Translations under genes and position numbers: made by a program
Shown: positions 17,535 through 64,000 of the stretch, in pieces
Layout of the letters: each line of letters starts with the position of its first letter
How positions within the stretch are numbered: the first letter of the stretch is position 1
Notes under the pieces: generated by a model
What the model saw: only the letters and a program-made list of their open reading frames with translations
Told to the model about the DNA's origin: nothing
The model's database searches: none
Assembly: GCA_037892935.1 (NCBI GenBank)
Contig: JAYXKI010000014.1
Coordinates: 310,001-374,000 of the forward strand
Origin: Phlebopus portentosus
Taxonomy: Eukaryota > Basidiomycota > Agaricomycetes > Boletales > Boletinellaceae
Direction of reading: 5' to 3'
DNA length: 64,000 nucleotides

Positions 17535-17950
17535 TAATAGAAAGACCTACCTCTGGCTCACGCCCGATTCCGTTGTCGTCGAGTGCTCGCCTGTGACGTG
17601 TCCCCTGAAGTATATCTTCGAAGGACGACATCGAACGAAACCCGGCTCCTACCGTGCAGACAACAAACCCCTATCTTGCCCGTCGAAGTCCGATTGACTC
17701 CGACGTGACCCGATAGTACCCGAAGTATCAACCAATCACATCACCGTGGCGCTCCGAATCACCCTTCTCTGGAACTCCCATCAAACCTTCTCGTGGGTAA
17801 CGCATAGAGTCCAGTCGTCGACAAGTATCTCCTTCATTATCTACCTCGGAGCCTTTTGTTTAGTCATCAATTTCAAAGACGAGCCGGTTATCCGAAGTCG
17901 GTCCCGCCCGAATAGCATTCCGATCCCCGTTCCACCCCCAGCCTATCAAG

Positions 17951-19396: not shown

Positions 19397-19437
19397 ACGT
19401 CGGAACGACTGGTCGGTCTCCTAAAGGTCTCTTTTCG

Positions 19438-21306: not shown

Positions 21307-23021
21307 TGTAGACTATTAGACTCTCCTAGACAGGGACAAAGGCGGCGGCGGCGGCGTTCGACCACAGGGAGGCGATGTCAAAGGTGTCGAGAGGAAAAAG
21401 GGGAGGTCCTACCAGATCTACAGACTACCTACAGGCTTTCAGAAGCGACACTCAGCTCAGATGTACAAAGATCTGGCCGTTAGGGCAGATCCGCCGCGCC
21501 TTCGAATAACTCGCCGCGGCGATCCGGGACTCGGCGACTGTATAGAGATCGCCGAGTCCGACTGAACCGGCAAAGGGGTCGCAGCGGCGGACTGGGTGCG
21601 GGGCCGGCGGAAGTTCGCACCAGTGCAATTCCGCCTGGTAGTCGGGGAGATGACGTCGGAACGACACAGAGAAGATGCGGGAGAGAGAGAGTCGACACCA
21701 CTTAAAAGGGGAGTAGTGTCGGCGGTGGAACGACGCGGAGGCGGCGGAGGCGGCGAGAAGTGGGAGACTGGACTCAGTCTAAAAGGGGCGCCGGCGCCGA
21801 CGGTAGCGGTGAACACAAGAAGAGTGACAGCTGCGTCGAGGCGTCGACGAAGTATAACAGATCCCTAGAAGAGTGACGGCTGCGTCGAGGCGTTGAGGAA
21901 GAATCACAAATGTTCAGGGGCCGAGCGGCGGCGGAGGCTGGAGAGAGAGGGACGGCGATGCAGATATGAGTGGGAAGTCCCTGGAGCGATTACTAGACGA
22001 GTGACAGCTGCGCAGAGGGGAGACGACCAGGGCGGCGAATGAGCTCGGCGGCTTCTATCCTGTGGGATCCGGGGCCACGCCGTCAGGACGGGATCGGCGA
22101 GGGCACGTGACCGGGAGTTCGCCCGATCCGGCTGTCTGGTTCTCTGTATATACTGGTTTCTTGAAGGAGGCTTCTTTACTTGTGGTTGGTCTCTGGTAGC
22201 TGCGTTCTAGAGTGTATATCTGCTGCTTTTTAGGATACATACATGCTCTCTATATATACTATGAGTCCTTGGTAAGAAATATCACTTAAAGCGGCGGGCG
22301 GCGAGGCGTGACAGGCGCGCCGTGACGGCGGGGGCCGCCGCCGAGATGCGCCGCCAAGCCACCAAGACCTAGGGGCGCCCCAATCGGAACGGCGGAGTGC
22401 TGGTACGTCGTGTCGAATGTCGGGGCCGTTCGGATCGGTCAGGGCGCGCTCTATATAGATCTGAAACGCCAAGGGGTCGAATAAAACTAAAAAGGGGAAT
22501 ATACGGACGGCCGCCGGGCGCGCTACCGCGCTCGGCGTACAATGTGGGATGATAAGAATGTGAAACAATCAACGAAATGGACCTGAGATTGGCTATCGTT
22601 CACCCAGCCGGCGCGGCGGCGGGCATACACCTCCGCGATGGCGCGATATACATCCGCCGCAGCGTGTCCGGCCGCCGTGCGAGCACTTCCGAAGCCCGGA
22701 GTCACCGGATTCGGCGGAACCGTTCTTGAGAGAGGCTGGAGAAGGGGAACTAGGATTTGGTCGAAGGGAGGACAAGGTGCTCATAAGATAGGAGTGGAGG
22801 CGCCGCCGCCGGTTCGTATGGTCGGCGGCGGCGGCGGCTTGGATGCTGTTCCTAGGCCGCCGAAGGTCCGGCGGCCGCTGAGCAGGCTGTATTATGGGTA
22901 ACGGCGGCGAAGGCTGGTTTGCTGGCAATAGTACGCGGGGTGTCCTGGGTATGGCATAGGGGAGTACCGCCCTTACAGGCCTGTGCCGCTGGACCGGTAC
23001 AGGTTAGTGCGGCGCACTACA
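21307..23021 (-). repeat. 3' LTR of element B
   Basis: 1,715 bp, TGTAG..CTACA as read on either strand. Compared with the other LTR it shows a small indel and one substitution near 21570, a short indel near 22328, and a C/T change near 22802. A short purine run (AGAAGGAGA on the minus strand, 23030-23022) directly abuts it and fits the polypurine tract. Confidence 0.95.
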
Positions 23022-23145
23022 TCTCCTTCTGACGAAGTAAAAAAATGATTAAAAAAAATGCTGGGTAGTGTAGGGGAGGTATTTAGGCGAAGTTGAGCGG
23101 GGGTTGTGATGTAACTGGGTGGTATGTCTGTGACTTGCTCCTGGA

Positions 23146-24092
23146 TTAGTCTTCGGTTGTGAGATCGATCATCGGCGGATCGTGGATTGGTGCGGCGGTG
23201 TGCGGTGGAGGGTTGGCTCTGTCCGCCGCATCTTGTTGAGGTACGTTGTTGAGGTATGGGTGATGTTCAATGGATTCCCGAAGCTCGGCGAGGTGCTCTT
23301 CGATGTCCTGGGCGGCTGCGATTGCTGAGAGCGAATACTGTTGTGCTTGGAGTATAATGGCGATGACGTTGGCGGCGCAGTCGCGTATATCATCGTCGCC
23401 GCGCTCGTCGAAGAGGCGTAAGACTTGGATTATGGCATTGTGGGATAGGTCTGAGGCGGCGTCGGAGTAAATGACGGCGTTTTCGAGTGCAATAGGCCCT
23501 TCTCTGAGGATGGCGAGGGGGCATTGGGTAGTACGCCATCGCCGATAGGCGCGCCGAGAATTATGGGGATCGTAGTGAGGGCGCCGCCGATGCGGAGCGT
23601 TTCTCGGATGCGGCAAACGAGTGTCGCTTTGTTGGCAGGCGTCAGATGGTGTCTGGCGAAGAGTTCGGGGATGATCTGAAGCATCGCGGGGACGTGTCTG
23701 GCGGGGAACGGCATCGCCGCAGGAAACGCGTCGGCGAGGAGGTCGCAAAATGATCCCCAGTTTCCTCCGGAGAGGCGTGGGTCTTGACAGAGGAGTTGCT
23801 GGGCGTCCGGCGAGGCCCAAATGTACAGCAGGAAGATTAGAGTCGCCGTGTCGGGGCAGGGGTGATGAAAACTGCGAAGGGCGGCGATGAGAATATTTGG
23901 TAGAGCGGTGTAATCAGGGTGCCATGGGTAGAGGAGCATGGGGTGCCCGGGAAGTGTGATTAATTGGGCGAAGTTGAAATCTAAAAGGTGTTGGGCATGG
24001 CGGGGGAAGTGGACTGGGTGCGGGACTTGGAGTAGTGGTGTCGCCGGTGCGAATGGAAACGCTTCGGCGAGGCTGGGAACCAGCTGGGGCAT
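23146..24092 (-). CDS. Unknown sense-strand reading frame in element B, frameshifted or spliced
   Basis: Two overlapping minus-strand frames (24092-23430 and 23820-23146) look like one protein of roughly 310 aa. The first gives a proline- and histidine-rich protein with hydrophobic patches (TLIFLLYIWASPDAQQLL). The second supplies the likely C terminus (LENAVIYSDAASDLSHNAII, then a helical stretch and an acidic end MIDLTTED). The switch falls near 23,530, around ATGCCCCCTCGCC. No intron there keeps phase well, so a 1-nt indel in the C run is possible. I do not recognise the family. The position downstream of integrase is where env-like or accessory genes sit in some LTR elements, but there is no signal peptide or clear membrane anchor. 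Confidence 0.45.
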
Positions 24093-24295
24093 GTTGTAAG
24101 GAGCGCCGATGGTATTCGTAATCTGTAGGGTAGATGTTTTGGGGGCGGTGAGTAGTTCGCCGATCGCTTTATATATTTTCGGCGAGTGTTTTCCGGGTTG
24201 GCCGGAGGGTATGACGGCTTTTGGCGAGGTGAGGTTGCCAGTATTATAGTGTAGGGGCCAATATAGGCGAAAGCCGAAGTAGTGTTCTAATGGAA

Positions 24296-24650
24296 GGGGG
24301 CCTAGGCGAAGGTGTTTCGTGTAGGCGGATCGTCGGCGGGACGAGTAAGTGGGATGGGAGGCTAGCGGCGAGGCTGGTTCGCCGGTAGTTCGGGTATGGT
24401 GGCCTGTAGCGGCGTGGGGCGAAGCGAACTTCGAATGGGATGGGGGCCTGGGCGAAGGAATTTCGTATAGGCGGGTCGTCGGCGGGACGAGTGAGTGGGA
24501 TGGGGAGCTCGCGGCGAGGCTGGTTCGCCGGTAGTTCGGGTATGGTGGCCTGTAGTGGCGTGGGGCGAAGCGATCTTCGAATAGAAGGGGGCCTGGGCGA
24601 AGGAATTTCGTATAGGCGGGTCGTCGGCGGGACGAGCTTCGATTTAGAAG
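24296..24650. repeat. Tandem repeat, period about 146 bp, 2.4 copies
   Basis: Units begin with GGGGGCCTRGGCGAAGG at 24296, 24442 and 24587; the third is cut short after GGCGGGACGAG (about 24637). Units differ by scattered substitutions. On the minus strand they read as repeated proline/arginine-rich peptide, but a protein is doubtful. The repeat lies in the non-coding space between the two accessory genes of element B. Confidence 0.85.
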
Positions 24651-25233
24651 GGAGTTCGGAAGTAAAGTTTAAATGGTTAATCATGGAGGGTGTCGTCATA
24701 TCATGATCTTGATCTGGTACCAGATATGGATACAATGGCCTTGTAGTCAGGGGTAGTGGTACATCGGAAATACAATTCGGCGGGATTTTGGCGGTCCGGG
24801 AACCAGTCGGGGACGCCAGGTAGTTAACTAGGGCGGTGTAGGTCGTAGCATATAGGTTGAGGATTTGTTAATGGGTGTAGGTACGGCTAGGGTAGGGTGT
24901 GCGGCGATATTTGATGATCGGCGGTGGGGATCGGCGTAGAATGTTGTATCGGCCGGCTTGGCAGGGGTCTGGAAGGTTGGGGCTGTGTTGTGGCGGGGTT
25001 CGGCGGATTGTTCCAGCGAGTTTTGGAGGGGGGAGAGTCGCCGAGGGGTTTGTGGAATTTGAGTGGAGATTGCGGCGGAGCAGTGGGGAGGATTTGGTAA
25101 TTGATTGGTAAAAAGGGGGCGGGGAGGTCGCGTGTATGGAGGGCTGAAATCGGAGTTTGAATTGGGTGCGGCGAGGATATAGACGACGGGGACTCGTGTC
25201 TGAGTTCCCCGTTTCTCTTTTTCTCTTTCCACC

Positions 25234-26899
25234 ATGGCGCCGACAATTCTCAGCGTCAGCAGCAGCAGCGGCAGCGACAGCGACAGCAGCAGCAACAACA
25301 GCAGGGAGGGGTCGGAGGCTCCCTCCGACCAGATGGAGGTGGACGCCGGGGCGGCGACGGGGGCTCCTGCCGCGGGCGGGATGTCGCGGGCCCCCAGCGG
25401 GCAAGAGGTCCCGCCGGAGTCGCAGGGGGAGACGGAGGAGGAGGGTGGGGGGGGGGGGGGGGGGGGGGGGGGGGGAGAACTGGATGCGGCCGTGTGGGCG
25501 GCCATTACGGCGGTGAGGGGGTGGATCGAGCGGGCCCGAAACGATGAGGGGCCCGCTGCCGATGAGCTCGATGGGCTCTTGGTAAATTTGCGTTCCCTTG
25601 ATAATAACCGTGTGAGCTGACGATCTGGTTTACTTTTTCAGAAGGGGCTTGGGGAGCGCTTCCCCGCGCTATCCGACGACGCGAGGGCTGAAAAGCCCGA
25701 ATATTATTGCGCGGGGAGGTGGTTGGTGAACCGGGCGACGGTGGTGCGGATGGCCGCCGGGGAGGCTAAGGACGCCGCCGAGGCGTTGGACAAGGCCGCC
25801 CAGTCGGAGGTGAATCGCCTCCGACGCGTCGCGGAGAGGCTGGCCGAGCGCCGGGAGGAGGAGGCTCGTGAGGAGGCGAAGTGGAGCGCGGCGAAGGTGG
25901 CCGAGGAGGCGAAAGCCTCCTTCCTCAAGACGCTCGCCACCCTGCGAGTTGGGGGCCCGGAGGTCGTCGAGGCCTTCTGTAGGTCCTCAGGGCGCGATGA
26001 GGCGGGGAACCTGGTAAGTCGTTGTCTTGAATCTTGTTTTTTACTGTCTCTGATAATATCTTCTTAGGTCGCGGCGCCTAAAACGAGCACCAAAGCGAAG
26101 GTGCAGGCGCGTCCCGCGGCCAGGCCGGCGACGGGAAAGACGATTACTCTTCCTGGGTCGTCGATCCCTGGTCTTGAGGTGGCGGGTTCGTCCAGCGAGA
26201 CGCTCAAGGGGGAGAGTGGTCGAGTGACGCGAGGGGGACGCTCGGGGACGGTCACGGGAAAGACCATTACTCTTGAGGTTGAGTCTGATGAGGGGTCAAC
26301 GCGAGCGAAAAGGTCGAGAGGAAAGGAGGTATATGTCGATGTGTGTTTTATGTCCTGGATCTTATTCTTCACTGACATGTTTCGTTTCTAGGTGCCTCCC
26401 CTTCCGAAGCGCGTACGTGAGCCGGTGGTCGAGCCGCCGGCGAAACGAGCAAGAGCGCCGGGAGCGGCGGCCTCGGGTGGGGGCAGGGCGAAAGAGGAGG
26501 CGACAGGGAGACGGGACGGGGCGGTGAGTGCTGTCTTGAATTTTGTTCGTGACACTCTCTGACTATAATATTCAGAGGGAGGAGGGGGGTTGGGAGTTCG
26601 AGAGGGTCGGGCGGCTCCCCAGGGGTCAGAGCCGCCGCCTCCTCGAGTTCGTGTCGCCGGGGTGCGAGCAGTGCATCGGGCGTGGGGAGGTGTGCACGAG
26701 GCGCCCACCGGCGCTCCTGTGCCAGGCGTGCCGGGTATCGCACCACCGGTGCGATATCTTGGAGTCGGACGTGACCTTCCTGGCGCAGCAGGAGGTCCTC
26801 GCTCTCCGCCGGCAGCTGGAGGGGATGGAGTCGACGTTGGCGGGAGAGAGTGCGGGTGGGGGGGTGGAGGAAAAGGCCCAGGGTGAACGCCGTGGATAG
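25234..26899 (+). CDS. Antisense multi-exon gene of element B, Zn2Cys6-like cluster, about 478 aa
   Basis: It lies opposite to gag-pol. Exons 25234-25581, 25642-26013, 26068-26328, 26392-26523 and 26576-26899 give 479 codons; all four introns are phase 0 with GT..AG ends. The ATG sits in CACCATGG, a strong Kozak context. The N terminus is Ser/Asp-rich with a polyglycine run coded by 29 consecutive G. Exon 2 has an Arg/Glu/Ala-rich helix, probably a coiled coil. Exon 4 carries a basic patch (PPAKRARAPG) like a nuclear signal. Exon 5 has CX2CX6CX8CX2CX6C (from residue about 401), the spacing of GAL4-type binuclear zinc clusters, then a helical tail. It converges with pol (stop at 27341), 442 bp apart. 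Function is unknown; a DNA-binding regulator is inference. Element D carries a gene of the same plan. Confidence 0.8.
25447..25475. repeat. Homopolymer of 29 G
   Basis: The run codes polyglycine in exon 1 of the antisense gene. Such a run is unstable and hard to sequence; its length decides the frame of the exon, and at 29 it keeps the frame open. Confidence 0.9.
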
Positions 26900-27340
26900 G
26901 CGGCGAGCCAAACGACGCAAACGGCGTCGGCTCGCGGTCTTCGGCGACCATGAAGCGCCCTTGGGCCGAAAAAAAATATTAAAAAAAATAGGAAAAATAT
27001 AAAAGTACAAAAATATTGTATTTTTCTTTTTTCTTGTGTACTATAGTGGCTTGTAATAACAAGCCGAATGTTTTTCTTGTGAGGATGGTTCTTTGTGAGA
27101 TCAGGGAATGTAAGATTGAGATGGGCTGGAGTGAAATAGGGAGGATAGGCGCCCTAAAAATAGCGCCGGGGCCGAAAGAATGACTTGAGTAAGGTGAAAA
27201 TGTGGGAGGGGGTGACTCGGCGTCTCGCCGCAGTCGTTTGGGTGATGATTGGAGAGAGTGAAGATAGCGGCGGGTCCGAATAGGTGACTTAGGGAATGTG
27301 TATATAAGGGAGAGGGTGATTATGAGGCTTCGGCGGATCT

Positions 27341-30300
27341 TCATAAGTTGGATTCGGCGTCTAGGTCATCCGCCGCGGTCTCTTGTGCTAGGTTGTCGAG
27401 TTCCGGCGTGGATTTCTGAGTGAGGTCTTCGACTGAGTCGATGATTCGAGTGCGTGCGTGGTAGGGGATAACTCTGAATGCTGCGTAACGAAGTGCTGAA
27501 ATGGCGCCGTTTGCTTCGGCGAGAACGTAGGATCCTCCTTTGGTTCGCCGCACGACAATCATGGGCCCTAGGTACTTCGGCTTTGTCTTCCTGTTCAGCT
27601 CGTTTTCGATCTGGGAGTTCCGGACCAGCACAAGTGAGCCGGGGGCGAAATTGTAATCTTTAATTGTTGCGGCGTGGGTTTTCTCGAAGTCCTGTATGGA
27701 TTTGAAACGCCCCTGGATGACGGATTCCTTGACTCGTTGGAGGTCCTCGGGACGTTTCTGGAGTGCCCTTGCTCTCGCCGCGATGAGTTGTGCGTCGGAC
27801 ATCTTGGAGGTGACCGCCGGCGAGATGTACGTCTGTTCGGCGAGGTCGAAGGGGAGTACTGGTTCGACGCCGTGGGCCATAAAGTATGGGCTATAGCCTG
27901 TGCGGCGTTGAATCGTGATTCGTTCGGCCCAAATGGCGTGGTATATATGCTGGGACCACTTGTCTGGGCTTGCGTCGGCGAGCTTCATTAGGGTTTCTCT
28001 AAGGTCCCGGTGTCGCCGCTCAATGATTCCGTTGGCTCTTGAGTTGTACGGCGAGATTCGAATGTGCTGGACATTGTATTTGGCGAGAAGGCGGGGTAGG
28101 TCCTTGGAGAATGAGGCGCCGTTGTCGGTTACGATCTCCTCGACTCGTCCCCATCTTGACAAGATATCTTCAAAAACGAAGCGTGCTATCGAGGCGGCGT
28201 TATCTTTGCGCAGCGTTCGGAATTCGGGGTATCCGGTGAGGGAGTCTCGGGCCTGAACGATATACTTGAATCCGCCGGAGGGCGGCATTAACATGACGTC
28301 TATATGCACCCTGGAGAATAGCGGCGCGGGCGTCGGGCTTTGCGGCGTGGTATATATTTTCGTAAACTGCCTCGTTTGGCATTGGTGGCAGGTTCTGATA
28401 TACCATTTGATGTCCTGATGCATTCCTGGCCACCAGAATCGGTCTTGAATCGTTGTTCTGACAGAGAAGAAGCCTTTGTGGTCGAGTTCGTCGTGGGCAG
28501 TTCTGATAATGGAAATTCGGCGTTCCGGCGGAATAACGAGTGCGGCGTGACCTTTGTCGTTCTTTCTGTAGAGTTCGCCGTGCTGTAGGAAGAAACGAGT
28601 GGCTCGGCGTACGAACTGTTTGAATTGGGCGTCTGAAAAATCGGCGGGGCGGGATGGGGCGGCGAGAAATTTCTTGATACAATCGAGGTCTTTGAATCCT
28701 TTTTGTGAGGCTTTGTGATCGGGGAGTTGTACGGGTTCGCTGTTTGGGGTATAGGCCGTGTCGGAAAGGTCTTGGTTTAGGAAGGAGTATTGATGGTCGA
28801 TCCATTCTTCGAAGCCTTCGTCTCGCGGCGGATCGGTTTGTGCGGCGCCGCGGCGTGATAGGCCGTCTGGGCCGAGGTGTTTGGGCGCCGGCGTATGAAT
28901 GATCGTGAAATTGAAAAGTAAGATGCCGGCGATCCATCTATTGATAGTGGCGTTGGGTTGGAGGTCTGGGTTGTTAATCATGCCTTTAATATAGCTGGCG
29001 TCGACTTCGACGAAAAAGTGATCGATGCCGACGAGGTATATGCGCGCCTCATATAGAGCTCTGAAGAGGCCGAAGAGTTCTAGCTTCGCCTGGGAGTAGT
29101 TTCGTTCTCTGTTGTTCCAAGTTCCGGACATGAAACGGGATGGGACCCTTTCGCCGTTTTCGCCGAGCTGTAACAAGATGGCGCCGTAGCCATGAACGGA
29201 GGAGTCTACACAGAAATGAACAGGTTGTCCTGACTCGTAGTCAATAGAACGAATGGCGCCGGAGGATGCTACGGCGTGTTTTAGTAGATCCATAGATCGG
29301 CGGGCGTCTTCGTCGAATAGGAAGGGCTGGTCTTTGCAGAGTAGTTTGTTGAGACCGGCGGATAGTCTGGCGTAGTTCTTCACGAAGTGTCTAAGGACGC
29401 CGGCCGTACCTAAGAATGCCCGAACATCGTGGACATCCCGCGGCGGCGGCCAATCCATTATCGCCTTGACCCTGGATGCGTCTGGGACTCGGCCGGCGTA
29501 ATTACAGGTGTGTCCTACAATGACTGCTTCTGGTGCGGCGATGATGAGTTTCTTACCCGAGACAGTGGCGCCGACTACTTTGAGGCGTTGGAGGACGCGG
29601 TTGACGTCGTTGAGATGTTCCCAGATGAAGCGGCGGATGTTCGGGTTTCCCGGAATGGTTTCGTAGTTTCCGGCGGCGAGCTCGTATCGGGATTTAGGCC
29701 CTTTTACAGGAATATCGTCGATGTATGGGATACAGACGTGGGGTATCTCATCTTTGAGTACGAAGGTGACGTCGGCGTGCATAATTTGTTGCGAGTTGGT
29801 GTATCCCATAGGAATCGACGTGAGGCGAAACGCGCCGAGAGGTGTTTGGAATGTTGTGAGGTCGCGGGATCGTACGTCGAGCTTTCTCTGGTCGAAGGCG
29901 ACGAATAGATCGAGTGTGGTGTAGCAGGCATGGCCGCCGAAGGTCTCGGCGATGTGTTCTGTGGGGTAAGGGACGGAGGGGTCGCGTATGGAGACTTTGT
30001 TGAGTGGCTGGAGGTCGTGTACAAGCCGAAGGGATTTTCCATCCTTTTTAACGACGCAGAACCATCGGGAGCGGTAAGAGGAATTGGACGGCTCGTAGAC
30101 GCCGGAGTTAATTTTGTCTTTGATTATGCGAACCACTTCGTTGAAGATGCCCGGCGGAATAGGGATGTTTTTCATTACCCACGGCGTATGGTCGACAGTA
30201 GGAATTAGAACCGGCGCGAAGTATTGATAGTCGAGGGAGCCCTTTTCTGTCTCGTCCCAAGCTAGGCCGTCTTCATGTTGTAGAAGGGTCCAGTAGGCGA

Positions 30301-30826
30301 GGTTCTTTTCTTCCTCACTGAGGAAGCCAGTTGGGTCGATGTCTAGGGCGTCGAAGCGCTCTTGTGTAAAGCGGCGTCCCGGAATGAACTCCGGCGGATC
30401 GATAGGGAGCTTCGGTAGATCTGTGAGCGGCTGCGGGTGTGATTTGCGTATGATGCGGTAGTCCTCTGGAAGGGTCGCCGATATAGGTTTGGTTCGTTGG
30501 GCGACCTTTTTGTACTTGTAGGCGTGCCCGGCCGGTTGAGCGGCCGTGGTATTAAGAGTGCTGTTGGAGCGGGGTATTCGGTTGCGTACGGGGAGTGATT
30601 CATCGTCGAAAATAGAGTTAATGAAGAAGGCTGGATGTTTTTGGGCTTTGTTCTGGGCTGTGAAACCCTTTTCGGCGGATCGATCAGAAAATGAGGTGGA
30701 GATATCTATGGTGCGGGGATTGAAGGCGATATCTACAGTCGCCGGGCCGTGATGGAGCACATATGCGTCGGGTATGGTTGGGGATATACGCCGCATATGT
30801 TCCGGCGGACGCCGCTGGGACGTCAT
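27341..30826 (-). CDS. Pol of element B: reverse transcriptase, RNase H, integrase (1161 aa)
   Basis: The ATG at 30826 overlaps the protease stop as ATGA. Reverse transcriptase shows LVHDLQPLNKVSIRD, IPMGYTNSQQ and the catalytic YIDD (about 29700). RNase H shows FCVDSSVHGYGA and the NYSQAKLELFGLF segment. Integrase has an HHCC zinc module ending TCHQCQ, then the DDE core: HIDVML, IVTDNGASF and SRANGIIERRHRDL. The C-terminal region (RKTKPKYLGPMIVVRRTKGG) is a GPY/F-like module; no chromodomain follows. There is no premature stop. This polyprotein would copy and insert the element, and together with intact Gag and protease it makes B a candidate active element. Confidence 0.95.
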   Translation of the reverse strand: MTSQRRPPEHMRRISPTIPDAYVLHHGPATVDIAFNPRTIDISTSFSDRSAEKGFTAQNKAQKHPAFFINSIFDDESLPVRNRIPRSNSTLNTTAAQPAGHAYKYKKVAQRTKPISATLPEDYRIIRKSHPQPLTDLPKLPIDPPEFIPGRRFTQERFDALDIDPTGFLSEEEKNLAYWTLLQHEDGLAWDETEKGSLDYQYFAPVLIPTVDHTPWVMKNIPIPPGIFNEVVRIIKDKINSGVYEPSNSSYRSRWFCVVKKDGKSLRLVHDLQPLNKVSIRDPSVPYPTEHIAETFGGHACYTTLDLFVAFDQRKLDVRSRDLTTFQTPLGAFRLTSIPMGYTNSQQIMHADVTFVLKDEIPHVCIPYIDDIPVKGPKSRYELAAGNYETIPGNPNIRRFIWEHLNDVNRVLQRLKVVGATVSGKKLIIAAPEAVIVGHTCNYAGRVPDASRVKAIMDWPPPRDVHDVRAFLGTAGVLRHFVKNYARLSAGLNKLLCKDQPFLFDEDARRSMDLLKHAVASSGAIRSIDYESGQPVHFCVDSSVHGYGAILLQLGENGERVPSRFMSGTWNNRERNYSQAKLELFGLFRALYEARIYLVGIDHFFVEVDASYIKGMINNPDLQPNATINRWIAGILLFNFTIIHTPAPKHLGPDGLSRRGAAQTDPPRDEGFEEWIDHQYSFLNQDLSDTAYTPNSEPVQLPDHKASQKGFKDLDCIKKFLAAPSRPADFSDAQFKQFVRRATRFFLQHGELYRKNDKGHAALVIPPERRISIIRTAHDELDHKGFFSVRTTIQDRFWWPGMHQDIKWYIRTCHQCQTRQFTKIYTTPQSPTPAPLFSRVHIDVMLMPPSGGFKYIVQARDSLTGYPEFRTLRKDNAASIARFVFEDILSRWGRVEEIVTDNGASFSKDLPRLLAKYNVQHIRISPYNSRANGIIERRHRDLRETLMKLADASPDKWSQHIYHAIWAERITIQRRTGYSPYFMAHGVEPVLPFDLAEQTYISPAVTSKMSDAQLIAARARALQKRPEDLQRVKESVIQGRFKSIQDFEKTHAATIKDYNFAPGSLVLVRNSQIENELNRKTKPKYLGPMIVVRRTKGGSYVLAEANGAISALRYAAFRVIPYHARTRIIDSVEDLTQKSTPELDNLAQETAADDLDAESNL

Positions 30827-31335
30827 TGTCTAGGGGGGCGCTGTTTTTCTGTCCCGGCGCCGCGCTGAATCGTCGGGATCGACATGGTTTCGTTCGTATC
30901 GGGATGAGTAAGGTATAGCGTCTGTTCGCCGTCGGCCTCGTCTATGACCTGCGCCCTAGTGTGTACGAAAAACGGCCGGCCTAATAGTAACTGAAAGGGG
31001 GCCTTTTCGACGACCTGGACTTGGACAACAATAGAGAAGGCGCCTATGGTGAGTCTGACGCGAGGGATGAGTCCCGCCGAGCGTGAGGTTTGTCTGTCGG
31101 CGGTTTCTACTGTGATTGCTTGGCTCATTATCGTCGGGGACCCGAGGTCCTTCCATATCTCTTTTGGCACGGCGATAAATGTCGACCCTGAGTCGAGCAA
31201 AGCTTTTACTTCGAATTTATCATCGAGCCAGACCTCGATTTCGCGGAGGGGAATGTTCGGCGGGGCGACGGAAGGATCTTCGTCGCCGAAGTTAACCGGC
31301 GAGGTGGGCCTCGGGATCGAGGCGTACATTGCCAT
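30823..31335 (-). CDS. Aspartic protease of element B as a separate reading frame (170 aa)
   Basis: The catalytic motif ALLDSGSTFIAVP lies about one third in, and FQLLLGRPFF is the second conserved block of retroviral-type proteases. The frame stays open upstream of its ATG (31335) back through the Gag stop at 31361-31359, so Gag-Pro fusion by frameshift is possible. Its TGA stop shares bases with the pol ATG (ATGA at 30826-30823), a layout suited to stop-and-restart translation. The same layout recurs in copy E (63453/63456). Confidence 0.9.
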   Translation of the reverse strand: MAMYASIPRPTSPVNFGDEDPSVAPPNIPLREIEVWLDDKFEVKALLDSGSTFIAVPKEIWKDLGSPTIMSQAITVETADRQTSRSAGLIPRVRLTIGAFSIVVQVQVVEKAPFQLLLGRPFFVHTRAQVIDEADGEQTLYLTHPDTNETMSIPTIQRGAGTEKQRPPRQ

Positions 31336-31358
31336 CTCGTGATCAGGATTTTCCCTAA

Positions 31359-34080
31359 TTAGTTCTCGGCGCCCCGTGACGAATTCTTTACACTTCTTTC
31401 TGATTTCGGGAGAGGCGGCGAGCAGGCTTCGGATCGGCAGGGTGACTTCCGAGTCCAGAATCTTGTCGAAAACGTTCGATACCGCGGCGTCATCGTATGC
31501 TGGTACGGTGGTTCGGTATTGTGGCTTCGGATCCGCCGCGTCATCCCTGTGTGGCGCCGAGGGCGTCGGCGGCGGGGCCGGGCGTTGTCCGGGTGGTTTC
31601 CCCTTCTTGCTGTTATCTCCCCATTTCGGGTTGGGGTCTCGAGGCGGCTTTCTGGTGGGGATTTCGATTCCGTCGAAAACTTCTCTGGGGCCTGGCCGTC
31701 TTCCGGCGGCGGCGAAGGCATTCTGCGGTTGTTCGGGGGATTCTTCTTGTTCAAAAAGGAGCGCGACTCCGTCGCAGGCATCGTCGTCTGGGGGTCTTCT
31801 GGGGTGATAGCCTCGAAGTAGTTCGATTCCTGGATTCGCGGCGGCAGGCCGTTTGGCGGATTTGTATTGTAGGCTAAGGGAGGCGGTGCCCGGTTGAGGC
31901 CCTGGTACATAGATTCCTGTGATGGAGGGTGTGACTGATACATGGATTGTTGAGTCGGCGGTTGTCCCTGATATGTGGGATCCTGCCTCGGCGGAGCGAT
32001 CCTTGGCGGCGTGTCGGATACGGGCTGAATGGGGAGCTGGACGCCAACTGGTGCGTAGTTTGGATTCTCTATGAAGAGCTTATTAATCCTGTCCAGTACT
32101 GACATCCCCGGTTCCCCCTGAGGAAGTCGGCCATTGGAGGGGTACAAGTACCCTTTGGCGTCGGCGAGCATGATTCCCCTCTGGATCAGGGAGATCTTGG
32201 TGGGACAGTCGCGGGTAGAGTGCGTTACACTGGCGCATACGGCGCATTTTCCGTTAAATCTGGCTTGTCGGGGCTGCGGCGGGGCTCCTGCGGTTGGCGG
32301 CGGAGCGCGGCGGTTTGACTTCTCGGTGGCTTCACGGAGGGCGCGCATTTCCTGGATTAGGAGGGACACCCACAGTTCTTCTTGCTTGACCTGGGGTTGG
32401 TTGATGACTCCGTAGGCCGGAGCACCGGGTTGCGGCGGCGGCGTGTACGTCGTAACTTGTGTATAGGTGGGCATGGCCGCTGTCGCCGCATACATCAGTG
32501 GTTGGTCGGCGGTTGTGAGGCGGCCGCCGGTTAGGATGCGTTCTAGTTCTCTTACAACTGTGTCGATGTCCCAGGGCACGCCGGTAGGGTGGTCGTGCTT
32601 GACAAACCGCAAATTAAGATCCAGCTCTCTGTTTAGCGTCGGGTGGAGGCCTTCTCTGAACATACGCTTCTGTTCGAACTCCGATAGCATGCCGGCGTCG
32701 ATAAGATACGAGGAGACGGTGATAAAGTTCCTATGGTATTCGCCGAGGGCGGCGGTGTTCAGCATAATTTGGTTGCGGCTTATGTTAATAAGGTTGTGGA
32801 GGTCGCCGAGTGTGTACTGGGTCGTAGCGTTTGGGTAGTACTTTAGGATAGCGTCTTTGAATGCCATAAAGTCGTTTCCTCTCGTTTCGGGCCTTTTGCA
32901 CCATAGCTGATCGTCTTTAGCGTCGGCGTAGCATCTTGCCCAAGCGATCATTTGTGCATCTGTTAGGCCGGCGCTTCGTCCAAATAGCCGGACTCTGTTA
33001 AAGAAGATGGGGATTTCCGCGGGGTCGCCGGAGGCGTTGAACTTCGGCGCGCGGCGGTCTCCCGGGTAGGGCATTGTAGCTCCTGGCACTGGTGGGTTGG
33101 GACCACTTAATGGATGGGTATCTGGGTCACTGAGGTCTGGGAGAGGGGGAAAGGCGCCCGCGGGGGGTGGTGCTGGTGCGGCATAGGCTGGTGCGGCGGG
33201 GGACGGCTGTTGGGGGGGCGGCGGGGTCGATCCTGAGGCTGCGGGGGGCGCGGCGGGAATGCCGGTATGGGTGCTGGTCATTGTTGGTATCGAGGCCGTC
33301 TTAGGAGGTGTACTGGGGGTGGGTGGTTGGGCGTTGTCAATTGGGGAGAGCCGCGGCCTCTGAGCTGGTGTCGGCGGCGTAAGGGGGGGGGGTGGGGAGA
33401 GCCTCGCCGATCGCTCTTCTTCGACGGGGGATAGTGGAGAGTCGGGGGTGATTGCGTGGCCGTGTACGAGGGAGTCGGGGACGTAAAGGTCGTCGTCCTC
33501 CTGTTCTTCTGCGGCGGAGTATAACTGTAGGCCGGTGCGGCGGTGGAGATCTGGGGGGTTGTCTATGTCGGAAAAGAGGTCGGTTTCGATGGGGCCGGTG
33601 GCTGGAGGTTCCTGGAGGGATATTGACAGGTCCTCGATGCCGCCGGGGACACGAACGTGAGTACTGGGGCGAATTTCGGATTCGCGGAGGTCTTTAGGAA
33701 CGTGGATGAAACGAGGGGGAATTATAGGCGATATAGGGTGTGCGGCGGCGGTGCTTGCGCTTTCGCCGGGCGGTGGGTTACGTGTAAAAGGAGTGATAGA
33801 TGCTCTTCTGGGACGCCGGGTGGGTGGGTCGTCTGCGGCGATGGACGCGCGTCGACGGTTCGGCGCGGACGGAGATCTGGGTGCGGTGGGACGGGGTTCT
33901 TCTGTTCGGCCTCTTGTAAAGAGTGTGGAATAATGGTATGGTTGGCCGGCGGTTGTGGCTGAGGCTGTTTGACTGTTTTCCGCCCTTCTTTGCAGCCTTA
34001 GTGAGTATCGCGTGCCCTTGGAAGGGCCTGAGATCGGTTGGAACGACACCTTTTTACCTCCCTCGCGGTGGGCTCCAAAA
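31359..34080 (-). CDS. Gag of element B, about 900 aa
   Basis: A long proline-rich N-terminal region is followed by a Gag core with RRAPKFNASGDPAEIPIFFN and EYHRNFITVSSYLIDAGMLS. A CCHC zinc knuckle CAVCASVTHSTRDC lies at about 32250-32210. The C terminus is Pro/Gln-rich. The frame is open from inside the LTR across the presumed primer site. It has no ATG until deep in the protein (MTSTHTGIP, about 33281), so the true start (spliced leader, non-AUG or internal) is unclear. The 24 nt between its TAA and the protease ATG make reinitiation or frameshift plausible. Confidence 0.85.
34057..34080 (-). other. Candidate primer-binding site of element B
   Basis: Directly inside the 5' LTR, the minus strand reads TTT then TGGAGCCCACCGCGAGGG. 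The TGG start fits pairing to a tRNA CCA end. Element D has TGGAGCCCCCGGCGAGGG in the equivalent place (about 59753). The tRNA was not identified. Confidence 0.6.
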
Positions 34081-35795
34081 TGTAGACTATTAGACTCTCC
34101 TAGACAGGGACAAAGGCGGCGGCGGCGGCGTTCGACCACAGGGAGGCGATGTCAAAGGTGTCGAGAGGAAAAAGGGGAGGTCCTACCAGATCTACAGACT
34201 ACCTACAGGCTTTCAGAAGCGACACTCAGCTCAGATGTACAAAGATCTGGCCGTTAGGGCAGATCCGCCGCGCCTTCGAATAACTCGCCGCGGCGATCCG
34301 GGACTCGGCGACTGTATAGAGATCGCCGAGTCCGACTGAACCGGCGAAGGCGGTCGCAGCGGCGGACTGGGTGCGGGGCCGGCGGAAGTTCGCACCAGTG
34401 CAATTCCGCCTGGTAGTCGGGGAGATGACGTCGGAACGACACAGAGAAGATGCGGGAGAGAGAGAGTCGACACCACTTAAAAGGGGAGTAGTGTCGGCGG
34501 TGGAACGACGCGGAGGCGGCGGAGGCGGCGAGAAGTGGGAGACTGGACTCAGTCTAAAAGGGGCGCCGGCGCCGACGGTAGCGGTGAACACAAGAAGAGT
34601 GACAGCTGCGTCGAGGCGTCGACGAAGTATAACAGATCCCTAGAAGAGTGACGGCTGCGTCGAGGCGTTGAGGAAGAATCACAAATGTTCAGGGGCCGAG
34701 CGGCGGCGGAGGCTGGAGAGAGAGGGACGGCGATGCAGATATGAGTGGGAAGTCCCTGGAGCGATTACTAGACGAGTGACAGCTGCGCAGAGGGGAGACG
34801 ACCAGGGCGGCGAATGAGCTCGGCGGCTTCTATCCTGTGGGATCCGGGGCCACGCCGTCAGGACGGGATCGGCGAGGGCACGTGACCGGGAGTTCGCCCG
34901 ATCCGGCTGTCTGGTTCTCTGTATATACTGGTTTCTTGAAGGAGGCTTCTTTACTTGTGGTTGGTCTCTGGTAGCTGCGTTCTAGAGTGTATATCTGCTG
35001 CTTTTTAGGATACATACATGCTCTCTATATATACTATGAGTCCTTGGTAAGAAATATCACTTAAAGCGGCGGGCGGCGAGGCGTGACAGGCGCGCCGCGC
35101 GGCGGGGGCCGCCGCCGAGATGCGCCGCCAAGCCACCAAGACCTAGGGGCGCCCCAATCGGAACGGCGGAGTGCTGGTACGTCGTGTCGAATGTCGGGGC
35201 CGTTCGGATCGGTCAGGGCGCGCTCTATATAGATCTGAAACGCCAAGGGGTCGAATAAAACTAAAAAGGGGAATATACGGACGGCCGCCGGGCGCGCTAC
35301 CGCGCTCGGCGTACAATGTGGGATGATAAGAATGTGAAACAATCAACGAAATGGACCTGAGATTGGCTATCGTTCACCCAGCCGGCGCGGCGGCGGGCAT
35401 ACACCTCCGCGATGGCGCGATATACATCCGCCGCAGCGTGTCCGGCCGCCGTGCGAGCACTTCCGAAGCCCGGAGTCACCGGATTCGGCGGAACCGTTCT
35501 TGAGAGAGGCTGGAGAAGGGGAACTAGGATTTGGTCGAAGGGAGGACAAGGTGCTCATAAGATAGGAGTGGAGGCGTCGCCGCCGGTTCGTATGGTCGGC
35601 GGCGGCGGCGGCTTGGATGCTGTTCCTAGGCCGCCGAAGGTCCGGCGGCCGCTGAGCAGGCTGTATTATGGGTAACGGCGGCGAAGGCTGGTTTGCTGGC
35701 AATAGTACGCGGGGTGTCCTGGGTATGGCATAGGGGAGTACCGCCCTTACAGGCCTGTGCCGCTGGACCGGTACAGGTTAGTGCGGCGCACTACA
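34081..35795 (-). repeat. 5' LTR of element B
   Basis: 1,715 bp, nearly identical to the 3' LTR at 21307-23021. It is followed on the plus-strand side by the CCGT duplication at 35796-35799 and the rest of element A pol. Confidence 0.95.
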
Positions 35796-35799
35796 CCGT

Positions 35800-44394: not shown

Positions 44395-44402
44395 ACATCG
44401 GA

Positions 44403-50906: not shown

Positions 50907-51477
50907 TCTCCCGGTTTCTTGAAATTGTGACTGTCCGCAGTCACACTCCCAATAGGGTTAGACTCAGCGTCTCTAGATTCTCAACGCGTAAAACGCGGTT
51001 CGCGACGCATTCCGTTTATCTATCCTCTCTTCTCTCCGTCATGTCCCAACAACAGCAACAACAACAGCGACAACAGCAACAACAACAGCGACAACAGCGA
51101 CAACAGCAACAGCAGCAACAACAGCCACTGTTCGACGAGATCCCTGTCTCAGCGGAGGGCTTCGTGTTCAGTGACACGTGGCTTTACGGTGTTGGAAACC
51201 AGGTCCAGGTCATCGAGCGTTTGCACGAGGACGTGGATCAGAGACGGTTCGTGAGGATGACCGTTGCGCAGTCCGTTGAGAGGGCGGAGGAAATGCGTGA
51301 GATCCAGGTGCGCTTTCTTTTCTGTCTTCATCTATTCTCTTCATTCCGTTCCGACTTCCTGAACTTCATAGACTGCGAGAAAGAGACTCGAGGACCTTCG
51401 GCCCGAGTGGGTGCCTATCGATTTGATGTGGCCGCTGTATGCCGCGCGTTTCTGGGCGGAAAGTGTGGTTGCGCTTG
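50907..51477. repeat. Right arm of a 0.56-kb inverted repeat, spacer about 364 bp
   Basis: Pairs with 49986-50542. The two arms face away from each other, so the shared upstream sequences (CAGTCACACTCCCAATAG) flank a spacer at 50543-50906. The spacer has no recognisable gene. Confidence 0.85.
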
Positions 51478-52982
51478 CGGATCGTTGCGCAACCCTCAAC
51501 ATCAACTGCGACCAGCTCGATGCGCTCAAGGCTTCGTACCTCGAGGACGAAAAGCGTTCGAAGCCGGACACCGAAGTCTACGTTCAGCAATGGCGCGCGG
51601 GTTTGACCGGTCTAGAAGGGGCGATTGGTCGTCACCGCGATCTGCTACGGCCACTGGTTGGCCATTTTGACGAAAGGAAGGACGAGCTGGAGAATACGGT
51701 CATGAAGATCGATCTGGACCAGGTGAGTGCTCATTCTCGCTTCTTCTTCAAATCTTGCTAACTGTTGAACTTCTAGCTATGGCGGATGTTTTGGGTCGGT
51801 CGTCGTCCTCCCGGCACGGAGATTGATGACGTCTGGACCGAATTCGGGTGGCTCGCTTGGGCGGAGATCCGGGGAATCCTCCTCTCAGCGCCGCTGAAGA
51901 GTCACGTCCACGAGGCCCTGCGGTGCTGGACTGCGTATGAGGAGAAGTGCTGCCCGTGCTCGGTCAAAGCCACAGACGCCCTCGTTGCGCTGCGTTCCGA
52001 TGCGCATCTCGGCAGATCGGGCCCCTTTTCGTCGGGTATATCCGAATTGACCGAGTCTGCCCTCAGGACGCTGCTGGGTCGTCAAGACTTGAGTCAGGTG
52101 GAGCGGGAGTCCGTCATCAGCGAGCTGGAAGATCGTGCGGACCGAGTTTCGTACTTGAGCGAGCTGGAGAAGATGGCAAGCGTGGTCAGGGTTCCGTCGC
52201 CGTCTTCGGATCGCGAGGGAGATGAGAGGCCCACGAAGCGGCCTCGGATTGTCGATTATTCGAGCAACGAGGAGTCGGTAGAGGGGAACTGCAACAACAG
52301 CAGCAGCAACATTCCTTCTGCTGCCAACGGTTTCTCTTCAGGGGGTCCGGCTGGAGATGACGACTTTGGGGCTTTTGACGAAGCGCCCCTCTTTCTTCCG
52401 GATGGTGCTGTCAGCGAGAGCAACAGCAGCAACAGCAATCCTCCGGCTGTGAGCGAGTCTCCGAGTGCAGAACGAATGGAAGAGGATGAGGGAAGCCAAG
52501 GCGATGGCGGGGACGGTAGCAGCAGTAGCAGCAGCAGCAGCAATTTGTCTGCTGGTGGCTGGGTCGTGCATGATGAGGGGTGTGAGAGGTGCGCGAGGAC
52601 AGGCCGGGTCTGTGAGGGTTTCCCTGGGCAGGCCTGTGATTACTGCCGCACGAAGGCCAGGCGGCGATGCGAGCTGGCTATGCATGGGAGGGCTGCGCGT
52701 CGCCTGCGGAACGAGCAGGTGGAACGCAAGACGCGCGAAGCTCGTCAGCGCGCAATGGCGCAGGTGCTGAGGATGCTGGTTGCGCCTGTCCTCGAGGTGA
52801 GTGACATCAAGGAGTTGGTCACCGGGACGGAGGAGAGCGCCGTCCATTTCCGGATGGCGGCCTTGGAGAGGTGCGCGTGCGTGTTGTTCTGCGCTGCGGA
52901 TCAACTGCGCAACCTAGCGGAGGAGATGCTGGCCGAGACCAGTGCGCTAGAAAGGGTGGTAAGGGGTGAGGAGGAAGAGTAA
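51041..52982 (+). CDS. Antisense multi-exon gene of element D, Zn2Cys6-like cluster, about 607 aa
   Basis: Exons 51041-51307, 51372-51722 and 51777-52982 give 608 codons; both introns are phase 0 with GT..AG ends. The strand is opposite to the gag-pol of element D. An N-terminal Gln/Arg tract (residues about 4-29, CAA/CAG repeats) is followed by a folded-looking region (EDVDQRRFVRMTVAQSVERA), a helix-rich part in exon 2 and a basic patch (RPTKRPRIVD). Ser/Asn-rich stretches come next. The cluster CX2CX6CX7CX2CX6C starts at residue about 475 (CERCARTGRVC). A helical tail (LERCACVLFCAADQLRNLAE) ends in acid residues. No stop interrupts it although gag-pol next to it has five. The order low-complexity, basic patch, zinc cluster, helical tail is the same as in element B. 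A DNA-binding or RNA-related regulator is inference. Confidence 0.8.
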
Positions 52983-53585: not shown

Positions 53586-56500
53586 TTATAAGTTGAGGTT
53601 TTGAGATTCCGACTGGGCGTCGGAAACGTCGTCTTCTTCTGGTTTGATTGGGGGGTTGGCGTCGTCCTCGAGTTCGTCATCTGCTGCGTTTACGAGTTTA
53701 GTAACGGGTACAGAGAGATTCGAATGAGGAAAGTAAGGAATCAGGCGAAATGCAGCTACTCGGATCTTCGAGACTGATCCGTCGAGTTCCGCAATGACAT
53801 ATGAACCGGCCTTTGTTTTGCGTACTACCACGTAGGGTCCTAGGTATCGGGGCTTCGTCTTGCGATTAAGTTCCATTTTGATGCGCGTATTTCACAACAA
53901 AACGAGTCGTCCTGGCTGGAAGTCGTAGTCTTTGATTTTGGCCTTGTTGATCTCTTCGAATTGTCGTGCGTATGCATGCCGGGCATCGGAAACTAGTCTG
54001 GCGATTCGATCCAGTTCCTCAGGACGCTTCTGGAGCTGCTTCGCGCGGGTTGCGATGAGTTCCGCAGTTGGAACAGGTGTATCGACCGGGGGGGCTAAGT
54101 ACGTGGCTTCGGCGAGGTCAAAAGGTAGAATAGGCTCTACTCTGTGTACCATGTAATACGGGGACATTCCGGTCGCCTTCTGGATGGTGATTCTTTCTGC
54201 CCAAAATACTGAGTAAGCTTGGTCGCTCCATCATTTGTCATTACCGTCTACAGCCTTTATCAGGGCTTCCTGCACATCGTAGTGGCGTCTTTCTACAATT
54301 CTATTGGCGCGAGAGTTGTATGCTGAGATGCGTATGTGATTGATGTGATATCGATCCTTGAGGTAATCGAGTGCTGCGATGAACGGTTTCCCATTATCTG
54401 TTACGAGCTCGGGACAAGCGCCGTATCGGCAAAGGAGGTCTTGGAAAATGAACTGGGCTATCGCTTTGCCAGTTTCTTCACGCAAGAGTCAAAATTCGGG
54501 GTAACCAGATAAAGCGCATCGGGCTTGTACGATGTACCGGTATCCTTCAGACTTCGGCATTACCTTGGTGTCGATGTGTATGCGCTGGAAAATCGATGGT
54601 ATTGTTGGTACGACCGGAGGAATTAGAATGTTCTTCATCTGGCGAACTTGGCACTCATGACAGGTGCGCATGTAGTATTTGACGTCAGGACCGAGGGTAG
54701 GCCACCAAAATCGTTCCAGGAGTCGAATTCGAACAGAGTATACTCCCTTGTGGCCTAGATCGTCATGCGCTTGCTTTACGAGGTTCCATCTGCGTTCCAG
54801 TTCGATTACGACCTGGTGTCGTCCGTTCCGCACCTTCTTCCACAAATGTCCGTCTCTAGCGAAGAAATTTGCCGCGTACCTGATTAGTGCTGCATAGCCA
54901 CGATCGTCTAACTGATCCGGTCGCTTCTGGCCGATCAAGAAGCTCTTGACGTCATCCAAGCGAGCGTCTTTCGGGTTAGCTTTCTCGGAGCTGGGAAACA
55001 AGGTCAACGCGATGTCAGTCATCTTCGGAAAGTCAGAGCTGCCGTTTCCCTTCCGGTGTTTACTGTTCGATCTCTCGAGGTATCCTACTGATCCGAGAGT
55101 TGCTTGTGCATTTCCAGGGCTCGATGGGAGTCGTTTCGCTTGGTTGTGCGCACGTAAGTCTGCGCAATACGTCGTAACCGGGTTTTCGATGTAGAATCCA
55201 TACGTGTCATCTATCCACTCTTCGTATCCTTCGTCCGGAGGTGGATCTTCGGGTGCTGGGGGTCGTCGAGAAAGTCCGTCGGTGCATTTGAAGTCCGCCG
55301 CCGGGATGTGGCGAATCTTGAAGTCGAATAGAAGTATCCCGGCGATCCAGCGGTTGATCGTAGCATTTGGTTGTAAGTCCGGGTTGTTAATCATACCTTT
55401 GATGTATGCTGCGTCCATTTCTACGACAAGCTTGCACACTCCGATGAGATATAGTCGCATGGCGTGTAACGTACGAAATAGTCCGTAAAGTTCGATTTTC
55501 GGTTGGGAGTATGTTGCTTGCGTGGCATTCCAGTTTATGGAACCGAAGCGATTAATCCTTCTTCGTCCATCTACGTGTTCTTGACCCAAATACCATCCTA
55601 CTCCGATAATCGACGAATCCACCGCAAGTACAACTTCGAGTTCCGATTGATAGTCTATTGCGCATAGAGCTGGACACCTAATGACCGCTTCTTTCAACTC
55701 GTTCATTGATTCCTGTTCTTCGTCTGTCCAATCGAAAATGTTGTTCTTCCGAGTGAGTCGATTGAGGGGGCGTGCTATCTTGGCGAAATCCTTAATGAAA
55801 ATTCGCAGGACTCCCACTGTTCCGAGGAATCCTTTGACTTCGGTTACCGATCGGCATGGCGGCCAGTTACTGACCTTCTGGACTTTCGATTCATCTGGCT
55901 CTCGTCCATAATATGTCAGTTTGTGTCCGAGAAATACGATTGACTCGACGCCGATCTCCATTTTCTTTCCCGAGTACGTCCCTCCCACTGCCTTGACTCG
56001 CTGCAAAATTCGATTTACGTCGCATATATGCTCATAAATAAATCGCCTAATCCCTGGATTCTCTGGCAGGGTTTTGTAAGAGCCATCCGGGAGTTCGTAG
56101 CGCGTTTTGGGACCTAATCCGGGCGAATTGTCTGCATACGGATCGGTACAGTGCGGAATCTCGTCTTGTAGGATGAAAGCGACGTCATTGTGCATAATCT
56201 GAAGGGAATTCGTGTATCCCATCGGGAGAACCGTCATTCTGAACGTCCCCAAGGGAGTCTGAAATGTTGTGAGATCTCGAGAGCATTCGTCTAGAACTCG
56301 CTGGTCAAAAGCCACATAGAAATCGAGGCTCGAATAACAACTTCGTCCGCTGCAACGCTCCGCAATGGTCTCTATATTCGGCGGAATGGCTGAGTCTCGG
56401 ACGGAAATGCCATTCATGTCTTGCAGGTCGAGTATAAATCGAAGGGAGACTCCATCTTTCTTGACTAGGCAAAACTATCGTGATCGGTACGAGGAGTTAG

Positions 56501-57026
56501 ACGGTTCAATGGCTCCATTCTTGATTTTCTCGCGAATCAGGTTGATGGTACGCTCGAGAATACCCGGAGGAATAGGTATGTTCTTGTGTACCCACGGTAC
56601 ATGCGGTACCGTCGGGATGCGAATCGGATCGAAGTATTGCGCATCGAAACTACCCCGTTCCGCTTCCGTCCACGCTAGTGCTCCTTCCTGCAGCATAAGT
56701 AGGTTAGCAACTAGCAGCCTTTCTTCGGGCCATAAGAACTGATTCTCGTCAATCCTGAGGGCTTCAAACCGCTCCTTCGTAAGTCTGCCTATGGGCATAA
56801 ACGGTTTCGGTTTCTTTGGTATTTCGGGCAGTCCTTCGAGCGGGTTCGGATGCCTCCTTCGAACGATCCGAAATTCTTCTGGTAGTACCCCGGGGACGGG
56901 CCGTACTTTCTGAGCGACGTGTTTGTACATGAGTACCGCCGGGTCGTCGTCGTCCGGGGTCTCTAGAATACATGATCTATAAGGTCGATTTGAATAGTCA
57001 GTAGCGAAACGCATTGGGTCTTTCAT
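53586..57026 (-). pseudogene. Pol of element D with four premature stops
   Basis: One frame from 57026 to 53586 contains RT (SNSSYRSR, stop, FCLVKKDG; then LPMGYTNSLQ), RNase H (AVDSSIIGVGWYLG and YSQPKIELYGLF), the integrase zinc module (CHECQVRQ), the core HIDTKVM, LVTDNGKPF and SRANRIVERRHYDV, and a GPY/F-like end. Four stops break it, at 56475 (TAG for TGG), 54489 (TGA for CGA), 54231 (TGA for TGG) and 53892 (TGA for CGA), judged against the conserved sequence and element B. The RT active site reads YADN at about 56140 (YIDD in element B), so the last Asp of the YxDD motif has become Asn, again one G-to-A change. Confidence 0.9.
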
Positions 57027-57151
57027 CAGCTTCCGAAGCTGGTTACTAAATAGCGAGGTGAAAGTGTTGGAAACATCAATAGAATAGATAGAAAACGTAT
57101 TGTTGAGGCTTGAACATGAATAATCGCCTACGTCTCGCTGACGTCTTATTA

Positions 57152-63965: not shown

Positions 63966-64000
63966 CTCGTGATCAGGATTTTCCCTAATTAGTTCTCGGC

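Follow-up and report, generated by a model that had tools for sequence, protein, structure and literature searches.

What is a spliced gene doing inside a retrotransposon, on the strand opposite gag-pol? The question is raised by a locus of the basidiomycete Phlebopus portentosus, within a 64,000-nucleotide stretch of DNA (the whole stretch analysed, here called the window; positions 310001–374000 of contig 14, in the 38.4-Mb, 23-contig genome that was searched). The window holds a 14.5-kb Gypsy-type long terminal repeat (LTR) retrotransposon on the minus strand, here called B, whose 1.7-kb LTRs are 99.7% identical by self-BLAST. Opposite its gag-pol, between pol (which ends at 27341) and the 3′ LTR, lies a plus-strand gene at 25234–26899 that encodes 478 amino acids. 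We rate it slightly better than an even bet, at a probability of roughly 0.55, that this gene encodes a nuclear Zn2Cys6-like regulator, carried antisense by a Gypsy lineage for its own use, with its introns protected by their orientation.

How does the gene model hold up? A first-pass annotation had proposed five exons and four phase-0 GT..AG introns, antisense between pol and the 3′ LTR, and this structure is borne out on the sequence. The introns measure 60, 54, 63, and 52 bp in order, and every exon length is divisible by 3. GC content is 0.63–0.74 in the exons and 0.31–0.40 in the introns, and is highest, at 0.81, at third codon positions. The parts of the gene are listed here, with the ratio of nonsynonymous to synonymous change (dN/dS) among copies for each exon; CpG denotes a cytosine followed by a guanine.

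25234..25581, plus strand: exon 1, with start context CCACCATGG; non-CpG dN/dS about 0.43
25642..26013, plus strand: exon 2; non-CpG dN/dS about 0.33
26068..26328, plus strand: exon 3; dN/dS about 1.10, constraint not seen
26392..26523, plus strand: exon 4; dN/dS about 0.27
26576..26899, plus strand: exon 5, with the zinc cluster and a predicted long helix; dN/dS about 0.66 (p 0.15)
26308..26457, plus strand, spanning intron 3: basic patches KRSRGK, PKRVR, and AKRARA, located where exon 3 ends and within exon 4, read from the translation
26663..26752, plus strand: cluster CX2CX6CX8CX2CX6C, cysteines 401, 404, 411, 420, 423, and 430

The ATG lies 2.2 kb inward of the 3′ LTR, and the basic patches are a possible nuclear localisation signal. 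A poly-G run at 25443–25475, within exon 1, encodes mostly glycines.

Is the gene confined to one element? There are at least 42 matches to it in the genome by DNA search (40 candidates scored), and 26 of these, the window copy included, are full-length (1,666 bases) at 95 to 100% identity. Every one of the 26 keeps both splice dinucleotides, GT and AG, at each of the four introns. A search with the B pol, in which 40 of 644 candidates were scored (copy numbers throughout are lower bounds), found at least 31 places at ≥92% identity, with two further pieces, and at least nine places belonging to a sister family at 52–53% identity. In one sister copy (L064), which lies just outside the window, the 5.5 kb behind pol holds a 522-codon antisense frame with the pattern CX2CX6CX7CX2CX6C; the frame is preceded by a predicted 47-bp phase-0 intron, and its start codon is a candidate. 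A third family is present in the window itself, and its pol frame is 48% identical to that of B over 661 residues. Its antisense gene, at 51041–52982, encodes 607 amino acids in three predicted exons, with both introns in phase 0.

54489..58765, minus strand: sense frames of family 3, from pol (54489–56474) through DUF4100/protease (57152–58765), by Pfam
51041..51307, plus strand: family 3 antisense gene, predicted exon 1
51372..51722, plus strand: family 3 antisense gene, predicted exon 2
51777..52982, plus strand: family 3 antisense gene, exon 3, with cluster CX2CX6CX7CX2CX7C at 52581–52670

Across the three families, 90 of the 98 listed pols (30 of 31 in B, 40 of 45 in the sister family, and 20 of 22 in family 3) have the antisense gene, whole or in part, on the opposite strand and no more than 6 kb downstream. 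None of the 98 has the gene on the same strand as pol, and 8 have no gene within 6 kb. The pols counted are 31 of the 42 matches from the B search (sister matches and the two pieces being left out) and, from a second search, the 22 matches of family 3 and the first-segment match of each of 45 sister copies. The gene matches counted are 35 of 42 for B, 69 of 91 for the sister family, and 30 of 103 for family 3; those left out are short pieces and, in family 3, mostly weak matches to sister genes. The gene thus lies on the opposite strand, inside the LTRs, and is kept across copies, as expected of an antisense accessory gene; the LTR pair was checked in the window copy. The first-pass annotation had named a lack of conserved copies in other elements as an outcome that would speak against it, and two further Gypsy families carry an antisense gene of this kind, predicted to be spliced.

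Do the three genes share an origin? In the region of the cluster, homology links the family 3 and sister proteins, with a best E of 1.2e-8 in the search of the genome and 32% identity across 98 residues (E 6e-6). Around the cluster the two proteins are about 29% identical, whereas the pols of the two families match at 80% and 69% identity in two segments, two copies being used for this comparison. The residues between the cysteines of the B cluster resemble those of family 3 (p 0.001). Shared descent of the B gene with the other two is likely, based on position, strand, spacing, and cluster residues, although sequence alone is not proof.

Two of the families have tandem repeats upstream of their antisense genes, which are candidate promoter or binding sites.

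24285..24636, strand not set: tandem repeat of 146 bp in 2.4 copies, upstream of the B antisense gene

The repeat of the sister family is 232 bp in 2.9 copies (L064 2428–3103). Within the window, 13645–14034 is 79–89% similar to the sister tandem-repeat region (L064 2341–3105) and is perhaps a remnant of that family. Beside the family 3 gene is an inverted repeat (49986–50542 and 50907–51476) with arms of about 560 bp and 84% similarity between them. One arm overlaps the gene in its 5′ part, and the other resembles a diverged inverted copy of that part. The first arm had no match above 88% in the genome besides itself, among the 40 of 59 candidates scored.

Does selection act on the encoded protein? 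Each distinct change among copies was counted once, against an expectation that keeps the spectrum of changes, and the tests cover B and the sister family. CpG transitions, the mark of methylated cytosine, make up about two thirds of the distinct exon changes among copies (267 of 393), and from this share the fungus appears to methylate these elements. Over all changes, the test for B is weak, with ratios of 0.77 for shared and 0.80 for single changes, since the signal is masked by CpG decay. Separating CpG from non-CpG changes was adopted as the test after this weak result. In the B exons of 33 copies or pieces, CpG changes look neutral, with a ratio of 0.97 over 262 changes. Non-CpG changes give a dN/dS of about 0.53, with 58 of 124 changes synonymous versus 39.5 expected (p 0.0005), and they number 32, 33, and 59 at the first, second, and third codon positions. 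The shifted frames give 1.54 and 1.25. For comparison, 1,050 bases of pol in 20 copies give 0.18 for non-CpG and 1.09 for CpG changes. The sister family behaves alike in seven copies: the CpG ratio is 1.19, the non-CpG ratio is 0.39 (25 of 48 synonymous versus 14.4 expected, p 0.0008), the shifted frames give 1.85 and 1.24, and the cluster pattern is kept in six of the seven. The six sister copies besides L064 were hand-picked and five are stop-free, a possible lean to conserved copies, though their CpG changes look neutral. These tests show purifying selection on the antisense protein in B and the sister family, outside CpG sites. A Ka/Ks near 1 among copies, another outcome named in advance as adverse, did not occur, and the proposal of a lasting accessory gene is well supported by this result, by the presence of the gene or a piece of it behind nearly all B pols, and by the recurrence of the design in two diverged families.

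What kind of protein is it? The Zn2Cys6 spacing range is CX2CX6CX5-12CX2CX6-8C, and it accommodates the clusters of B (X2, X6, X8, X2, X6), the sister family (X2, X6, X7, X2, X6), and family 3 (X2, X6, X7, X2, X7). A loose six-cysteine pattern matches only twice in the six frames of the window, at 26663–26752 and 52581–52670, which are the B and family 3 clusters, and not at all in 30 Markov shuffles. A low-confidence structure model of the B protein has a short helix for each cluster half, followed by a long helix, and resembles HAP1, PPR1, and PUT3. Similarity to the Gal4, HAP1, PPR1, and PUT3 type of factor (PF00172) covers the six-cysteine spacing, the predicted helix in each half with the long helix after it, and the basic patches. 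The differences are that B-type clusters in their native order score below the Pfam cut-off, that they are housed in a retrotransposon, and that the half most like the first half of Gal4 appears to come second in B and family 3. When the halves are swapped, with linkers shortened by hand, the score rises to 24.4 bits for B and 19.4 for family 3, stays at 12.3 for the sister family, and falls from 46.4 to 31.8 for Gal4. In two of the three families, then, the halves appear to be in swapped order relative to Gal4. The annotation's label "Zn2Cys6-type" fits as to spacing, but the native sequence scores below the cut-off of the family profile. A genome search with PF00172 found at least 60 places, and among the 60 listed none is at the three antisense genes (coordinates compared by eye); one of them, scoring below the cut-off, resembles a normal host gene that has the canonical order and is interrupted by an intron. 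A PDB sequence search gave one weak match (E 1.1). Among 600 pattern matches in viral contigs, none is a relative by cluster profile, and pol is also unmatched there.

Several observations weigh against a regulator under selection. First, the similarity to known zinc clusters is limited. The native PF00172 scores are 12.0 bits for B (14.9 for a short peptide), 9.2 for family 3, and 12.1 for the sister family, compared with a gathering score of 21, and the whole B protein has no Pfam match. The structure model is low-confidence (predicted local distance difference test score, pLDDT, 55.7), and a second model matched long helices alone, leaving the zinc cluster unmatched. Second, the link from B to its relatives is uneven: its non-cysteine cluster residues do not significantly resemble those of the sister family alone (p 0.12), and with a profile of the sister and family 3 proteins B exon 5 ranks first after self among 888 window frames, but at E 0.46. 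Third, the modelled form is open from ATG to stop in only 6 of the 26 full-length B copies. A seventh is open with ATA in place of ATG; among the remaining 19, the length of exon 1 is not divisible by three in 11, and the other 8 carry internal stops or single-base length changes in other exons. The variation in the length of exon 1, which holds the poly-G run, may be real change or sequencing error. Fourth, constraint is uneven, with none in exon 3 (1.10) and no significance for exon 5 alone (0.66, p 0.15). The B introns change at 0.074 non-CpG changes per site, low GC uncorrected, versus 0.069 and 0.071 at first and second codon positions and 0.127 at third positions; a simple neutral-intron expectation would not predict an intron rate so close to that of first and second positions. 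Fifth, two of the opposite-strand frames of B give 1.32, but the one that shares the wobble position gives 0.59 (p 0.0025). This follows from geometry, and the test therefore fixes the frame and not, by itself, the strand; the strand is chosen by the introns, the start context, and the cluster. Finally, classic Zn2Cys6 factors recognise CGG half-sites, and the CGG content of the LTR and the upstream region was put to several tests. For CGG/CCG in the B LTR (21307–23021) versus shuffles, z is 2.7 for single sites, 1.7 for inverted, 3.3 for everted, and 3.9 for direct pairs, a result treated as weak. CGG half-site richness upstream of the B antisense gene was rejected (z −0.3).

What else could the gene be? 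The strongest alternative is an anti-silencing factor that binds the DNA of its own family and relieves cytosine methylation or repressive chromatin. A parallel is VANC of the plant DNA transposon VANDAL21, a family-specific DNA-binding accessory protein that possibly opposes methylation. Like VANC, the B protein would be a transposon accessory protein of DNA-binding type and may be family-specific; VANC belongs to a plant DNA transposon, and the two are likened by description only. The share of CpG transitions fits this explanation, as does the divergence of the antisense proteins beyond that of the pols, which may reflect fast evolution or relaxed constraint. We regard it as unlikely, at about one chance in several. 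Less likely again, and improbable, is that the protein acts at integration or another nuclear step by tethering the complementary DNA or integrase of the element to chromatin. A DNA-binding-type cluster and basic patches would suit such a role, but a separate antisense message would not place the protein in the particle. It is marginally more doubtful still that the gene is a passenger, a captured host gene copied along and useless to the element. Most copies are not open across the whole modelled frame and exon 3 is unconstrained, as a passenger would be; place, strand, and cluster type are nevertheless alike in three families, and purifying selection is seen in two. In addition, the places listed by protein searches with exons 2, 4, and 5 coincide by eye with the DNA copies, and a separate host gene was not seen among those listed. 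There is small room for the possibility that the antisense RNA itself acts, as a non-coding repressor of the sense RNA with incidental frames. Antisense RNA control is known in Ty1, but the codon-position pattern and frame specificity of the non-CpG changes, and the cluster kept across families, argue for a protein. A chance artefact of GC-rich sequence, with accidental frames and motif, can be dismissed almost entirely: the exons are GC-rich and open frames exist on other strands of the same stretch, but the absence of clusters from shuffled sequence, the three families, and the selection tests together argue strongly against it.

What is known of the element that carries the gene? B has an LTR pair, a flanking repeat, a protease, and the order reverse transcriptase, RNase H, integrase, as in Ty3/Gypsy elements.

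21307..35795, minus strand: Gypsy-type LTR retrotransposon B, by self-BLAST, with ends and flanks read from sequence
21303–21306 and 35796–35799: 4-bp flanking repeat CCGT, read from sequence
21307..23021, minus strand: 3′ LTR, 99.7% identical to 34081–35795, with TG...CA ends
34081..35795, minus strand: 5′ LTR, by self-BLAST, followed by the primer-site-like TGGAGCCCACCGCGAGGG (read by eye, with no transfer RNA matched)
31359..34151, minus strand: long open frame in the gag position, without a Pfam match
30823..32079, minus strand: DUF4100 and aspartyl protease frame, by Pfam
27341..30829, minus strand: pol, with reverse transcriptase, RNase H, and integrase, by Pfam (rve match just under the cut-off)

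A 412-codon open frame without a Pfam match lies on the sense strand of B at 23430–24668 (minus strand), in the interval between pol and the 3′ LTR. B sits inserted within another Gypsy element (17074–21312 and 35796–38214), whose family has a second window copy at 40451–48719 and LTRs of about 460 bp. In that second copy, at most about 0.5 kb separates the integrase frame from the LTR, so an antisense gene could not fit there; its pol is 24% identical to that of B. B-like sequence (96%) recurs at 60418–64000, broken at 61530–63157. The frame at 9809–10675 (plus strand) bears a CDC37 N-terminal domain and is probably a host gene. An Rfam scan of the window found nothing at the gathering score.

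How would a nuclear Zn2Cys6-like regulator serve the element? Antisense placement would hide the introns from splicing of the sense genomic RNA. Introns unrecognised in that RNA would survive reverse transcription, and host-made spliced messenger RNA (mRNA) would therefore be possible from each new copy. Host transcription, perhaps from an antisense promoter within the 2.2 kb that separate the gene from the 3′ LTR, would yield the spliced mRNA, and the protein would return to the nucleus by way of the putative signals in its basic patches. There it may form a dimer that contacts DNA by means of the cluster and the long helix. Its most likely target would be the element itself, at the LTR or the antisense promoter, where it could increase sense transcription, set its timing, or counteract silencing. 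The first-pass annotation had suggested control of the element's own promoter, of silencing, or of host genes; any such control is inferred. The divergence of the antisense proteins is what recognition specific to each family, or an arms race against silencing, could be expected to produce; relaxed constraint would produce it equally well.

There is precedent for antisense genes in LTR elements. For example, HBZ of human T-cell leukaemia virus type 1 (HTLV-1) is a spliced antisense gene, started at or near the 3′ LTR, that encodes a nuclear basic leucine zipper regulator acting on the 5′ LTR. The B gene is similar in being a spliced antisense gene of an LTR element with a predicted nuclear regulator as its product. 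It differs in having a zinc cluster and a fungal Gypsy host rather than a retroviral one, and in its ATG, which lies 2.2 kb inward of the 3′ LTR; the two are likened by description only. The plant Tat-lineage Gypsy elements (Grande, Retand, and Ogre) carry extra antisense open reading frames between pol and the 3′ LTR that are kept across families, and the B gene shares the strand, the position, and the conservation. The Tat frames are not known to hold a Zn2Cys6 cluster or a set of phase-0 introns, and, without a literature search, no published account is known to us of a fungal Gypsy element with a spliced antisense gene for a zinc-cluster protein. A bolder version of the regulator hypothesis, which we hold tentatively and think somewhat less likely to be right than wrong, is that this is an ancient antisense regulatory gene with a swapped-half cluster, whose product evolves fast and serves as a family-specific switch of the LTR, or of the methylation, of its own element, an independently arisen counterpart of HBZ or VANC.

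What are the implications? A retrotransposon cannot retain introns in the genes of its sense strand. An antisense gene that is spliced and kept under selection, in three families of one genome, suggests that fungal Gypsy elements can carry spliced nuclear regulators of their own. If this is true, the ways in which such elements control their expression or escape methylation could be tested directly, and the best-known fungal DNA-binding domain would gain a variant with its halves in swapped order.
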